This document shows positions 3,611 to 11,116 of a stretch of DNA of 64,000 nt, piece after piece. Source of the stretch: Mesorhizobium sp. B2-8-5 (GTDB taxonomy: Bacteria; Pseudomonadota; Alphaproteobacteria; Rhizobiales; Rhizobiaceae); contig NZ_CP083951.1 in NCBI RefSeq assembly GCF_006440675.2, positions 5,427,501 through 5,491,500 of the forward strand, in the 5' to 3' direction. A program made the position numbers and the translations under genes. How positions within the stretch are numbered: the first letter of the stretch is position 1; each line of letters begins with the position of its first letter. The notes under the pieces were generated by a model that worked only from the letters and a program-made list of their open reading frames with translations, was not told where the DNA came from and did not search any database.

Positions 3611-4501
3611 CTAATTAATCAAGCCGGCGTGCTTGAGCGCCGCGTCGATCTTTTGCGCGGTCGAAACCTCGACCGTCACCAGCGGCGAGCGCACCACGTT
3701 CTCGATCCTGCCCAGCTTCGACAACGCGTATTTCGACCCGGAAACACCGGGCTCCATGAAGATCGCCTCGTGGAGCGGCAGTAGCCGATCCTGCAGGTCG
3801 AGCGCCTTGGCGCTGTCGCCGGAGAGTGTCGCTTCCTGGAATTCGGCACAGAGCCGTGGCGCGACATTCGAGGTGACCGAAATGCAGCCGACACCGCCAT
3901 GGGCGTTGAAGCCGAGGGCGGATGCATCCTCGCCGGAGAGCTGGATGAAATCCTCGCCGCAGTGCATGCGCTGATAGGAGACGCGCTCGACCTTGCCGGT
4001 CGCGTCCTTGACGCCGGCGATGTTCTTGAAGTCGTGGCGCAGCCTGCCCATCGTCTCCGGCGTCATGTCGATCACCGAACGCGGTGGGATGTTGTAGATG
4101 ATGATCGGCAGCCTGGTCGCCCTGGCTACGGCGGCGAAATGCTCATAGAGTCCGCGCTGCGTGGGCTTGTTGTAATAGGGCGTGACCACCAGCGCTGCAT
4201 CGGCGCCGGCCTTTTCGGCGTATTGAACCAGCCCGACCGCTTCCTCGGTGTTGTTGGAGCCCGCGCCGGCCACGACGGGCACCCTGCCCTTGGCCACCTC
4301 GATGCAGACCTTGACGACCTGACGGTGCTCCTCATGCGACAGCGTCGGCGACTCGCCGGTCGTGCCGACGGGAACGAGACCCTTGGTGCCTTCGGCGATC
4401 TGCCATTCGACAAACGAGCGAAAGGCTTTCTCGTCGAAGCGCCCGCTCTTTTCGAACGGTGTCACAAGCGCAGTCAGCGAGCCTCTCAGCATGTCGTCCA
4501 A
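3611..4501 (-). CDS. dapA: 4-hydroxy-tetrahydrodipicolinate synthase DapA
   Basis: First committed enzyme of lysine and meso-diaminopimelate synthesis: condenses pyruvate with aspartate-4-semialdehyde. 296 residues forming one TIM barrel. Visible motifs are [11 protein letters not shown] near residue 45, [18 protein letters not shown] around 130, [12 protein letters not shown], and IAGVKDATG, whose lysine (about residue 165) forms the Schiff base with pyruvate. The gene is divergent from the lytic transglycosylase at 4959, so both genes of this locus feed or recycle cell-wall material. The 457-bp gap between them holds several palindromic repeats. Confidence 0.96.
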
Positions 4502-4526: not shown

Positions 4527-4571
4527 GCGTGTCGTCGTCCCAAAACCGGTTCCCACTTTTGGGCGACATGC
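4527..4571. repeat. Repeat family B, copy 1 (45 bp)
   Basis: Palindromic element with the core CCCAAAACCGGTTCCCACTT followed by TTGGGCGACATGC. Two further copies are arranged in tandem at 48413-48457 and 48468-48512. It sits in the dapA promoter region. Confidence 0.85.
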
Positions 4572-4671
4572 ATCGGTGTTCATTAGATCGGTTGGTTGCG
4601 CGCCTTCTACCCGAAAGCGAAGCCGCGCACCATAGTCTCGACATGGTTCAGCGGCAAGCATCGGCGTAGTG

Positions 4672-4749
4672 CCAGTGTCGTGGTTTTCGATGTTCGCCAG
4701 ACGTTGATATCAGGCTCGGGGCGAACATCGAAAACCAAAACGACACTGG
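4672..4749. repeat. Long palindrome IR1 between dapA and the lytic transglycosylase
   Basis: Arms of 27 and 30 bp: CCAGTGTCG then TGGTTTTCGATGTTCGCC on the left, and GGCGAACATCGAAAACCA, AAA, CGACACTGG on the right. The only interruption is a 3-base AAA bulge. The 21-base spacer contains TTGATATCAGGC. The transcript would fold into one long hairpin. Its partner IR2 starts 12 bp further on. Confidence 0.9.
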
Positions 4750-4761
4750 ATTCGACAGTTG

Positions 4762-4839
4762 GCTGGTGTCCCTGCGATTCTGAAATTCGCGCCGCGCCCG
4801 ATATCAAGGTCATGCGAATTTCAGAATCGGGACACCAGC
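4762..4839. repeat. Long palindrome IR2, partner of IR1
   Basis: Arms of 29 and 26 bp: GCTGGTGTCC, CTG, CGATTCTGAAATTCGC on the left and GCGAATTTCAGAATCG, GGACACCAGC on the right, again with a single 3-base bulge. Read on the minus strand, its spacer contains TTGATATCGGGC, almost the same as the IR1 spacer, although the arms are different in sequence. Same overall length (78 bp) as IR1. Confidence 0.9.
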
Positions 4840-4958
4840 AAGCGCAATTCGAACGGCCTCGATAACCTTTTGTTTACGAGCCCTTCACGACCTAAGTTTA
4901 GGCTTCGCATCGGGTTCTCAAATGCCCGCGCCTGCTGACGATGTGCTAGGATCGTAAA

Positions 4959-6992
4959 ATGCCGACGAGGCGGCCCCATCTTTTCGCGCTTTTGGGCGCG
5001 ATCGTCGCGCTGATGCCCACCGTGGCGATCGGCGGCAGCGTCGATGTGCGCGCGACGGCCTCGATTCCGGTGCCCGATGCGCCGCAGGCGCCGGGCCAGA
5101 TGTCGACCGCCCCCGACATAGCGCAACTGAAGAGCGGGCTCGATGCGCTCGCCGCCAACAACATCGCCGGCGCGCGCAATGCGCGCGACACGCTGCCCGC
5201 CACCTCGCTCGACCGGCACATCCTTGCCTGGGCGATCGCGCTTTACGGCGGCGATCAGGTGCCGAGCGGCGAGATCGCCGACGCGGCCAAGATGCTGCCG
5301 GGATGGCCCGGCACGATCGCGTTGCGCAAGAACAGCGAGCGCGCGCTCTATCGCGAGAACCCGCCGCCGCAAGTGGTGGTGCAGGCCTTCGGCCGCAGCC
5401 AGCCGCTGACGCCCGAGGGTGTGATCATTCTTGCCCGCTCGCAGATGGCGCTGGGCAACCAGGCCGCGGCGCGCGCGGTGCTGGTGCCGTTCTGGCGCAC
5501 CGAGAAGCTGGAAGCAAAGGACGAGGCGACCGTCATCAAGGAGTTCGGCGCGCTGATCCCGGCGGCCGACCATCGCTACCGCATGGAGCGCATGTTCTAT
5601 GCCGACCGGCCGTCCTCGGCGCTGAGGGTCGCTGGCCTCGCCGGCGCACAGCCCCTGGCGGATGCCTGGGCGGCTGCCGACAAGGGCGACAAGAACGCCG
5701 CCAAGCTGTTGAAGGCGGTGCCCGCGGCGCAGCGCTCGGCCGGCTATTTCTTCGCCGAGGCGGAATATCTGCGCAAGCAGCAGAAATTCGCCGATGCCGC
5801 TGCTGTCGTGATGAAGGCGCCGACCGATCGCGATTCGCTGGTCGACCCCGACGCCTGGTGGGTCGAACGCCGCGTGCTGTCGCGTGAACTGGTCGACCAG
5901 GGCGACATGAAGACCGCCTACAAGATCGTCTCCATGCACGCCGCCGAGAGCCCGCTGAACGCCGCCGAAGCCGAATTCCACGCCGGCTGGTATGCATTGC
6001 GCGGCCTCAACGACCCAGCGACCGCCGCCGGGCATTTCACGCGCATCACCGAATTCGCCCAGGGACCGGTGTCGCTGTCGCGCGCCTATTACTGGCTCGG
6101 CCGCGCGGCGGAAGTCGGCGGCCCAGGCAACGCCAAGGATTATTTCACGCGTGCGGCCGGCTACGGCACGACCTTCTACGGCCAGCTCGCGGGCGAGCGC
6201 GTGGGCTTGAGAACGCTCAACATCGTCTATCCGAAACCGAGTGCCGCCGACCGACAGAGCTTTGACAACCGAGAAGCAGTCGGCGCGATCAAGCGGCTGC
6301 AGGAAGCAGGCTACGACCGCTACGCCGAGACGCTCTACCGCGACCTTGCCGGGCAGCTGACCAGTCCGGGCGAACTGGCGCTGCTTGCGGTGCTGGCCGA
6401 AAAGCAGGGCAACCATTTCATGGCGCTGAAGGTCGGCAAGATCGCCGCCCAGCGCGGCATCGATGTCGGCGCGCTGTCGCATCCGCTGGGTGTCATTCCC
6501 GATTCGGCCAACATTTCGGGGTCCGGCAAGGCGCTCGCCTACGCCATCGCCCGCCAGGAAAGCGAGTTCAATATCGGCGCCGTTTCCAGCGCCGGCGCGC
6601 GCGGCCTGCTGCAGCTGATGCCGGGCACCGCCAAGCAGTTGGCGAAGAAGGCCGGCATGACCTTTTCGCAGGCGCGGCTGACGACCGATGCCGGCTACAA
6701 CGCGACGCTGGGCTCGGCCTTCCTCGGCGAACAGCTCGACCGCTTCGGTGGCTCCTATGTGCTCACCTTCGCCGGCTACAATGCCGGCCCGAACCGCGCC
6801 GCCCAATGGGCGGTGAAATACGGCGATCCGCGCGGCAAGGGCATCGATGCGGTCGTCGACTGGATCGAGCGGATTCCCTACACGGAAACAAGAAGTTACG
6901 TGCAGCGCGTGATGGAGAATTATGAGGTTTATAAGATGCGTATTTCAGGGAAATACGACATCGTGGGCGACCTCGTGAACGGGCGCAGCTGA
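4959..6992 (+). CDS. Soluble lytic murein transglycosylase (Slt family)
   Basis: 677-residue periplasmic enzyme that cleaves peptidoglycan glycan strands with formation of 1,6-anhydro-MurNAc. It has a signal peptide (HLFALLGAIVALMPTVAIGG), a long alpha-helical superhelix typical of Slt70, and a C-terminal SLT domain from about residue 520. The motif ARQESEFNIGAVSSAGARGL places the catalytic glutamate at about residue 534; LLQLMPGTA and FAGYNAGPNRA complete the SLT signature. Length is close to E. coli Slt70. It is divergent from dapA across a repeat-filled gap, and its 3' end is followed directly by another palindromic repeat. Confidence 0.92.
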   Translation: MPTRRPHLFALLGAIVALMPTVAIGGSVDVRATASIPVPDAPQAPGQMSTAPDIAQLKSGLDALAANNIAGARNARDTLPATSLDRHILAWAIALYGGDQVPSGEIADAAKMLPGWPGTIALRKNSERALYRENPPPQVVVQAFGRSQPLTPEGVIILARSQMALGNQAAARAVLVPFWRTEKLEAKDEATVIKEFGALIPAADHRYRMERMFYADRPSSALRVAGLAGAQPLADAWAAADKGDKNAAKLLKAVPAAQRSAGYFFAEAEYLRKQQKFADAAAVVMKAPTDRDSLVDPDAWWVERRVLSRELVDQGDMKTAYKIVSMHAAESPLNAAEAEFHAGWYALRGLNDPATAAGHFTRITEFAQGPVSLSRAYYWLGRAAEVGGPGNAKDYFTRAAGYGTTFYGQLAGERVGLRTLNIVYPKPSAADRQSFDNREAVGAIKRLQEAGYDRYAETLYRDLAGQLTSPGELALLAVLAEKQGNHFMALKVGKIAAQRGIDVGALSHPLGVIPDSANISGSGKALAYAIARQESEFNIGAVSSAGARGLLQLMPGTAKQLAKKAGMTFSQARLTTDAGYNATLGSAFLGEQLDRFGGSYVLTFAGYNAGPNRAAQWAVKYGDPRGKGIDAVVDWIERIPYTETRSYVQRVMENYEVYKMRISGKYDIVGDLVNGRS

Positions 6993-8178: not shown

Positions 8179-9255
8179 CTACTCGCCTTTCGAGCGCTTG
8201 CGGGGCGCCTTGGCCGGTTCCGGCCGTTTCGCTTTCCGAGACGGCGAGGCAGAGGTCGGCGTCGTGAGGGGCGAAGCGAAGACGGAGGCTTCGGCCGAGC
8301 GGGACGACGATTCGTCGCCGCGCGGTTTCTCGAGAACGACGACACAGCCATCGAGATCGTTGGTGGCCAGATGCGCGTACCGCATGGTCATCGACAAGGT
8401 CTGATGGCCCAGCCACATCTGGACGCGCCTTATGTCGATACCGCCCTGGACCAGACGTGAAGCGCAAGTGTGACGCAGGATATGCGGCACCACCTGTTCG
8501 TCGGCGCCGAGACCGACTTCCGTCTTCGCCTCGTTCCAGATGGCCCGGTACTGCGCCTGTGTGAGCTTGGTGAACGGGCCTTTCGGCCGGCGTCCTTCCG
8601 TGTTCGGCGGCAGCTTGATGACTTCCTTGACGCGCTCGGTCATCGGAATGGTGCGACTGCGGCCGGACTTGGTGATCCAGAAGGAGACCCGGTGTTCCTG
8701 GATGTCGTTCCAGATCAGGCCGAGCGCCTCGCCGAGGCGGCAGCCGGTATCGACCAGGAAGATGGAAAGCCTGTAGGCATCCTCGCTGCGGCTCCTGATC
8801 GCCGCGAACAGCCTCGCTTCTTCGTCCCTTTCGAGGAAGCGAATCCGTCCCGCCCGCTCCTTCTGGCGGCGGAATTCGGGCAGGCTGTGGATATCTCCCA
8901 TCTTATGCGCCTTACGCAGCAATTTGCTGAGGGCAGCCATCTTGCGATTGATGGTTGCGTTGCTGTTGCCGCGCTGGCGCAATGTACCGATAAGATTGTC
9001 CAGGGTGTTCTGGTCGAAGGTGCTGAAACGCTCTCCCAGAAGGATCTCGTCTATTTCACCGATGAACGAGCTAACATTGTATTTATGCCGCCCATCATCC
9101 CAGAGTATATCTCGATAAGCTGCGAAAAGCTCTCCGATCCTATACGACTTTACTTCTCGGATCTTGTTGTAGGTGTATCGAAAGTTCGAATTCTGAGAAG
9201 AAAATACCGCAAAATGACCAGAGGGCTCACCCTCTTGAACCGCTTCGTTCGACAT
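8179..9255 (-). CDS. Tyrosine recombinase / phage-type integrase
   Basis: Site-specific recombinase with an N-terminal SAM-like DNA-binding region (SFIGEIDEILLGERF through RKMAALSKLLRKAHK) and a complete catalytic domain: Arg in TGCRLGEALGL, Lys in TKSGRSRTIPM, HxxR in HILRHTCAS, a second His in WLGHQT, and the nucleophile Tyr in MRYAHL. The C terminus is a basic, low-complexity tail (SRKAKRPEPAKAPRKRSK). The frame stays open to a start at 9375, but the ATG at 9255, preceded by AGGGGG, fits the family better. No phage or island genes accompany it. The N-terminal part is AT-richer than its surroundings, suggesting acquisition. Confidence 0.88.
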   Translation of the reverse strand: MSNEAVQEGEPSGHFAVFSSQNSNFRYTYNKIREVKSYRIGELFAAYRDILWDDGRHKYNVSSFIGEIDEILLGERFSTFDQNTLDNLIGTLRQRGNSNATINRKMAALSKLLRKAHKMGDIHSLPEFRRQKERAGRIRFLERDEEARLFAAIRSRSEDAYRLSIFLVDTGCRLGEALGLIWNDIQEHRVSFWITKSGRSRTIPMTERVKEVIKLPPNTEGRRPKGPFTKLTQAQYRAIWNEAKTEVGLGADEQVVPHILRHTCASRLVQGGIDIRRVQMWLGHQTLSMTMRYAHLATNDLDGCVVVLEKPRGDESSSRSAEASVFASPLTTPTSASPSRKAKRPEPAKAPRKRSKGE

Positions 9256-9437
9256 TTTAGCCACACCCCCTGTGGTTAAGGGACCAGCCCTAACCGCTTG
9301 AGAGTGTCCTTTCAAGAGTTTTCGAATCTCATCGACGATCTCATCCGCCAGCGCGGAACCCACAAGATCGATCAACAGACCCGATCAGCTTACCGTTTCA
9401 CCCCCATCCTTTCGTTTGAATTGCCGCAACCGCGGAA

Positions 9438-11025: not shown

Positions 11026-11116
11026 TGGCGGAGAGGATGGGATTCGAACCCACGAGAAGCTTTTGACCTCTACTCCCTTAGCAGGGGAGCGCCTTCGACC
11101 ACTCGGCCACCTCTCC
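11026..11116 (-). tRNA. tRNA-Ser (anticodon GCU)
   Basis: 91-nt gene with encoded CCA. The acceptor stem pairs GGAGAGG (5' end, 11110-11116) with CCTCTCC (11030-11036), the discriminator is G at 11029 and CCA is encoded at 11026-11028. D-arm TGGCCGAGTGG, anticodon GCT at 11080-11082 within CCCCTGCTAAGGG, a long variable arm as required for a class II serine tRNA, and T-loop GGTTCGAATCC. It reads AGC/AGU codons. It lies in the gap between the two head-to-head porin genes. Confidence 0.96.

Follow-up and report, generated by a model that had tools for sequence, protein, structure and literature searches.

A mobile twin-hairpin element with covarying arms, inserted between dapA and a lytic transglycosylase gene in Mesorhizobium

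Results

Two inverted and diverged hairpins between dapA and a lytic transglycosylase gene

The window analysed here is a stretch of 64,000 nucleotides from the genome of Mesorhizobium sp. B2-8-5 (positions 5,427,501 to 5,491,500 of contig NZ_CP083951.1). It holds two long hairpins in the intergenic region between dapA and a lytic transglycosylase gene, which are transcribed divergently:

3611..4501, minus strand: dapA, dihydrodipicolinate synthase (Pfam DHDPS, E 4.7e-93)
4672..4749, plus strand: hairpin A, 78 nt, whose loop carries TTGATATC (pattern search and folding)
4672..4675, no strand: left CCAG, direct repeat and outer foot of hairpin A, single in the empty sites of sister genomes
4676..4834, no strand: element proper, 159 bp, starting with TG and ending with CA; with one CCAG, a 163-bp insertion
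4737..4739 (approximate), plus strand: 3-nt bulge on the inner arm of hairpin A, a side kept in the family (folding)
4750..4761, no strand: 12-nt spacer between the hairpins, its start overlapped by a GANTC site (GATTC)
4762..4839, minus strand: hairpin B, 78 nt, inverted with respect to A (folding and A/B alignment)
4773..4775 (approximate), minus strand: 3-nt bulge on the inner arm of hairpin B, a side kept in the family (folding)
4835..4838, no strand: right CCAG, direct repeat and outer foot of hairpin B (comparison of empty and occupied sites)
4959..6992, plus strand: lytic transglycosylase gene (Pfam SLT, E 3.2e-21)

The initial annotation had described two 78-nt palindromes 12 nt apart; coordinates, lengths and spacing were all correct, and both hairpins are far more stable than shuffled sequences, with folding energies 7.95 to 10.7 standard deviations under those of dinucleotide shuffles on either strand. 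It was equally right that each hairpin carries one 3-base bulge, both of which sit on the inner arm, and that the loops are alike in opposite orientation, TTGATATC(A/G)GGC being common to A and B; TTGATATCNGG occurs twice in the window against 0.08 expected. In contrast, the arms are not unrelated in sequence, as had been stated. When the hairpins were aligned in the same sense, 52 of 80 columns were identical, and a hand count from this alignment put the agreement at 34 of 54 positions in the arms and 18 of 24 in the loop. This agreement indicates that A and B are diverged relatives of one another rather than unrelated arms around a common loop. In the same genome a strict hairpin pattern matched nothing but the positions of A and B, which were also the sole strong matches of a covariance-model scan (next best E 0.007).

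The same intergenic region contains a short palindrome-like repeat, CCCAAAACCGGTTCCCACTTTTGGGCGACATGCA, at 4531-4575, and hairpins resembling it, GTCGCCC(C)AAAA...TTTTGGG(G)CGAC, were seen in relatives (L026, L028). A tyrosine recombinase-like gene (Pfam Phage_integrase) lies at 8179-9375 of the window, about 1.7 kb from a tRNA gene (11029-11116).

The twin hairpins are a single insertion

The region 4640-4860 was searched in 60 relatives, 36 of them Mesorhizobium. The same copy was present at this locus in G034 (96%) and G015 (92%), and nine relatives had an empty site (G032, G036, G023, G026, G011, G019, G030, G033 and G002), in which the left and right flank pieces overlap by 4-5 bp where they join. 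CCAG occurs once in these nine empty sites and twice, at both ends, in the occupied site, which defines an insertion of 163 bp, or of 159 bp (TG...CA) between the repeats. The two palindromes are one mobile element of about 163 bases, inserted at the window locus. Judged by its flanks, this copy is found in at least eight of 119 Mesorhizobium genomes (G000, G015, G034, G082, G083, G092, G095 and G111).

For 12 other twins from Mesorhizobium, the two flanks were joined and compared with the 119 genomes of the genus, and at least one spanning empty site was found for each of the 12. Precise empty sites, as expected of a MITE or other non-autonomous insertion, are thus present at the window and at all 12 further loci. 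Their letters come from other species and may have mutated there; with this reservation, the targets read CCAG at the window, CCGG at L069, TCGG at L084, CCCGG at L099, CTGG at L114, CCAG at L141, CCGT or CCG at L117, CCGA or CCCCAG at L136, CATG, CAAG or CTGG at L102, ACCGA or ACCAG at L079, and, at L129, where a single empty site was read, TCG (or CTCG if a C is shared), with no clear 4-nt target at L107 and L126. In G512, a genome of the same class whose three congeners are too diverged for most of 13 loci, relatives have CTAG at the insertion points of L299 and L347.

A dispersed family of constant architecture

A covariance model built from 11 hairpins found matches in 69 of the 119 Mesorhizobium genomes (E up to 0.01) and in 18 of 385 genomes of the class (E up to 1e-5), the window's own genome being counted in both. 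G512 alone gave 132 model matches, among 150 candidates scored, a palindrome being able to count on both strands. A pattern consisting of the feet only (CTAGTG, CACTAG) occurred in 10 of the 385 class genomes, although in G216 and G323 the letters suggest a chance match. A pattern scan of named genomes yielded 116 stretches, and the hosts of the 80 listed include Mesorhizobium, Bradyrhizobium, Bosea, Asticcacaulis, Hyphomicrobium, Magnetospira MAGs and others, together with one Phycisphaerales MAG. Searches of plasmids with three element queries returned 0, 0 and 10 records, and a phage search with one query returned none.

An arm-blind hairpin finder, which prefers near-perfect stems, delimited 131 twins in the collected loci, 103 of them distinct. 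Because these loci had been found with the Mesorhizobium-based model or with a pattern fixing TTCGAWGTTCGC arms, the set understates the variety of the arms. Two linked, inverted hairpins are the rule at the window and in all 103 distinct twins, with a length of 74-79 nt for hairpin A in 81 and for hairpin B in 82, and a spacer of 12-14 nt in 62. Of 172 bulges, mostly 3-4 nt long, 168 are on the inner arm (summed counts). From foot to foot the window twin measures 167 bp, and those of 18 loci 161-170 bp. Only some members of the family, 23 of the 103 twins, have GATATC in both loops.

Several variants of this architecture were observed. Short-loop relatives (L466-L471, L473 and L474) have loops of 3-6 nt and hairpins of 51-62 nt, some of these twins being clearly shorter than that of the window. 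G512 also carries single, bulge-free hairpins of 72-74 nt (L331, L333, L334, L338 and L339) in which the outer arm of A is joined to the outer arm of B; from their sequences they look like products of deletion between direct repeats of twins. The twin seen at L091 and L093 has its spacer split by some 90 bp of other, palindrome-rich sequence.

GANTC, a CcrM-type site, occurs in 85 of the 103 twins, with 103 sites in B arms, 34 in A arms and one in loops; the spacer region, taken as the spacer plus 6 nt of each arm, holds 51. At about 19 per kb these sites are dense in the B arms and the spacer, the loops being nearly free of them, and the movement of the element might be tied to methylation state.

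Arms covary and loops diverge

The initial annotation had suggested collecting further copies and looking for covariation of their arms. Copies there are, in 69 of the 119 Mesorhizobium genomes, and covariation is evident in five sets of orthologs (31 copies, whose counts share ancestry), where 22 compensated cells stand against 28 one-sided ones and 0.29 double changes were expected under independence. Over the same sets, arms differed at 74 of 3112 positions and loops at 92 of 1332; loops were more diverged than arms in eight of ten ortholog hairpin sets, about threefold when pooled. The exceptions were hairpin B of the window (loop 0.6%, arm 1.4%) and hairpin B of the L099 set. This divergence runs against the proposal of a conserved loop.

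A subfamily alignment of 33 distinct rows (A3), fitted to its own model, gave a covariation score of 0.513, compared with 0.181 when shuffled and at most 0.130 when slid. Its 851 cells include 184 with changes on both sides, eight with a change on one side and 44 unpaired. Two of the five measures applied to these rows showed no excess over shuffles, namely double-change pairs (16 versus 14.8) and further pair types (30 versus 32.6).

Selection on an RNA would favour G-T mismatches on the transcribed strand. The stems of 199 hairpins contain 26 G-T, 25 A-C and 31 other mismatches, that is, no excess of G-T over A-C, a balance also to be expected if both strands were transcribed equally. At the gathering threshold, Rfam recognised one tRNA elsewhere in the window and nothing on the hairpins. 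Nine sub-threshold Rfam matches did fall on them, eight to animal or plant microRNAs, as a long hairpin can give, and were discarded as evidence of an RNA family.

When A loops were compared with reversed B loops in 50 representatives, those of one twin resembled each other more than those of different twins did (p 0.0005). Kissing of the two loops was considered and set aside as an explanation: kinship within subfamilies can explain the likeness too, and inverted homology is indistinguishable from complementarity.

Feet, targets and rewriting

The tetranucleotides at the ends of the element, here called feet, were compared in 83 of the 103 distinct twins; the two were identical in 37 and different in 46, some of the latter possibly being mis-anchored. 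CTAG is the commonest, accounting for 83 of the 132 ends that fit YYRG. Thirteen twins have non-palindromic feet at both ends, which form direct repeats in 12 and an inverted repeat in one (eight to one by locus); such direct repeats are what target duplication gives, and a short direct target repeat as in MITEs is seen in those 12 and, as CCAG, at the window. In 139 of 194 hairpins (194 of 206 could be scored) the foot is fully paired with the inner arm.

At six loci (L069, L084, L099, L117, L129 and L136) neither foot matches the empty target. Nine of these 12 feet are CTAG; judged by eye, eight pair with the inner arm at four of four positions and the other four at two or three. That feet are unlike the target at six loci and fully paired in eight of 12 cases favours templated rewriting of DNA. 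The empty site equals both feet at the window and at L114, and one foot at L141, so rewriting is not seen there. Four G512 copies have an inner foot CTCG and an outer foot CTAG; together with the four mismatched feet among the 12, they indicate that pairing is not always restored.

At L433 of Roseibium algicola, the match (1501-1658) starts within the final codons of a gene for an SDR oxidoreductase (CDS end 1504), and the foot apparently holds the stop codon of that gene. Targeting of stop codons, hinted at by this copy and some G512 loci, received no support from the stop-codon reading frames of 83 twins (22, 18 and 13 in the three frames; a further 10 were ambiguous and 20 had no long frame).

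Candidates for the mobilising enzyme

Y1 transposases were found in four of 14 hosts, the window genome not among them, and in five of 14 control genomes. They were rejected as movers of the element, since no credible hairpin occurs at their loci, where the sole model match is partial (E 0.36). An autonomous version with a gene between two hairpins was likewise rejected: pairs 1.5-2.5 kb apart in G121, G076 and G072, inspected by eye, either enclose ORFs that do not look like transposases or are separate copies.

No transposase or parent IS with the same ends was found in the loci examined, which amount to a sample of loci rather than to whole genomes. At 49 loci searched with patterns from G512 arms, which are blind for G456, three short lone matches appeared, two without a hairpin and one in a decayed copy. 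Among 30 further loci (of 42 places), the match coincided with a hairpin in 23; four appeared decayed on visual inspection, and three (L446, L447 and L462) retained a single recognisable arm. Ten nearby ORFs showed no transposase domain, and six of them matched no Pfam family at all.

Discussion

How the element may move and keep its arms paired

Starting from the insertion, dispersal, constant architecture and arm covariation established above, we infer a mobilising enzyme and a copying of one arm from the other. In our opinion the element is probably a non-autonomous, MITE-like unit of about 160 bp moved by a transposase acting in trans, whose arms are kept complementary mainly by template switching. 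It would consist of a 75-78 nt hairpin present twice, the copies being inverted, diverged and linked by a short spacer, and would insert at C-Y-R-G-like tetranucleotides, leaving a tetranucleotide at each end through the action of a putative trans-acting transposase. Replication or repair synthesis would then switch template inside a hairpin, so that one arm serves as template for the other (quasipalindrome correction), a process that may also overwrite the target-derived tetranucleotides and thereby pair them with the inner arm. At the window and L114, where the inner arm matches the target, copying may go either way, or the source copy may already have matched. The persistence of the inner bulges counts against arm-copying, as templated correction should tend to remove them; they are probably retained as a requirement of the mobilising enzyme. 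A role for template switching in fixing and maintaining stems has been argued from RNA genes (PMC8794818).

Of the two possibilities raised by the initial annotation, a mobile palindrome family with arms rewritten together is well supported by the clean empty sites, the dispersed copies and the strong compensated change of the arms. The other, a structured element under selection, survives in part: recognition by a protein during transposition is possible, whereas the RNA version is weakened by the mismatch counts (26 G-T and 25 A-C), the lack of an Rfam family at the gathering threshold and the diverging loops. Pairing selected in a transcript, such as a small RNA, a terminator or an mRNA stabiliser, would suit the very stable folds, the strong covariation and the position of some copies at gene ends. 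We nevertheless regard it as very improbable, given the near equality of G-T and A-C (which like transcription of both strands would match too), the scarcity of one-sided steps (eight of 851 cells), the orthologous sites of relatives that lack copies and the silence of Rfam at the gathering threshold.

Two other explanations concern the way in which the element inserts. It could move as folded single-stranded DNA, following a logic like that of IS200/IS605 or attC sites: an enzyme would read the shape of the bulged hairpin, the foot would pick the target by pairing, and selection on shape would keep the arms complementary. Fixed stem lengths and a fixed inner-arm bulge combined with variable arm sequence suit such recognition of shape. 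Feet identical to the empty target at the window and L114, and the CTAG at the insertion point in relatives of L299 and L347, also speak for this explanation. However, the targets at L069, L084, L099, L117, L129 and L136 are unlike either foot, 10 of 14 hosts, the window genome among them, lack Y1 transposases, and five Y1 loci have no credible model match (one is partial, E 0.36), so that this explanation appears unlikely to us. Alternatively, the element would bring its own CTAG feet and replace the target tetranucleotide without duplicating it, in line with the predominance of CTAG (83 of 132 YYRG ends) and with the six loci whose feet are unlike the empty site. Set against this are the non-palindromic feet, which are direct rather than inverted in 12 of 13 twins, and the identity of feet and target at the window, and we judge it improbable.

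Relation to known repeats

No description of this element was recognised in the open-licence literature. Its likeliest known kin are the CIR, compared here by description and not by sequence; the name reportedly stands for Caulobacter CcrM-associated intergenic repeats, as they are said to have been called by Chen and Shapiro in 2003. The part of Delihas (2007; PMC2229807) devoted to them describes repeats of about 110 bp made of two hairpins and a linker, with GANTC at or in the terminal loop. According to that account, the features in common with our MITE-like twins are an alphaproteobacterial host, an intergenic location, two long linked hairpins, GANTC sites, TA at the termini and a mover that is not established. 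The differences from the same account are size, about 110 bp versus 167 bp from foot to foot here (161-170 in 18 loci), the short-loop relatives with hairpins of 51-62 nt being nearer to CIR, and the position of GANTC, at the terminal loop in CIR and, in the 103 twins, in one loop as opposed to 137 arm sites.

REPINs and GTAG/CGTC-tagged REP dimers (PMC3733652, PMC3116915) likewise combine two hairpins, frequently in inverted orientation and with a tetranucleotide conserved at the foot, and an inverted dimer with a CTAG-like tetranucleotide foot is what the present family has. Their hairpins measure 20-40 bp, compared with 75-78 nt here, where the foot is CTAG or a CYRG relative; moreover, the Y1 transposase that belongs to the REPIN/RAYT system is missing in 10 of our 14 hosts. 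Bacterial MITEs such as RUP and Correia are, like this element, small and non-autonomous with inverted ends and a short target repeat, in the passages of Delihas (2007; PMC2229807) that mention them. Unlike the MITEs of those passages, each end here is a full hairpin, and no parent IS with the same ends was found in the loci examined. Finally, template-switch (quasipalindrome) mutation, as treated in PMC8794818, accounts for simultaneous compensated changes of stems; what differs from the switching published there is that we propose it to act on a mobile element and even on nucleotides that stem from its target site.

Implications

A bolder reading, which is tentative and on balance doubtful, is that of a mobile element, dispersed across the class, identified by its shape and not by its sequence: the enzyme would read two hairpins, CTAG-like feet and inner bulges, and copying of arm from arm, at every insertion or in subsequent replication, would overwrite even the target of the host. 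If this were true, the arms would drift freely, their pairing being re-imposed by the copying process. Covariation is usually read as a sign of selected RNA structure. The DNA family described here combines strong covariation with nearly no G-U steps, seemingly extending to the nucleotides of the target site, which points to a mutational origin. It would caution against covariation alone in RNA discovery, would provide a natural system for the study of template switching in bacteria, and suggests a link among the CIR-like, REPIN-like and MITE-like repeats of Alphaproteobacteria.
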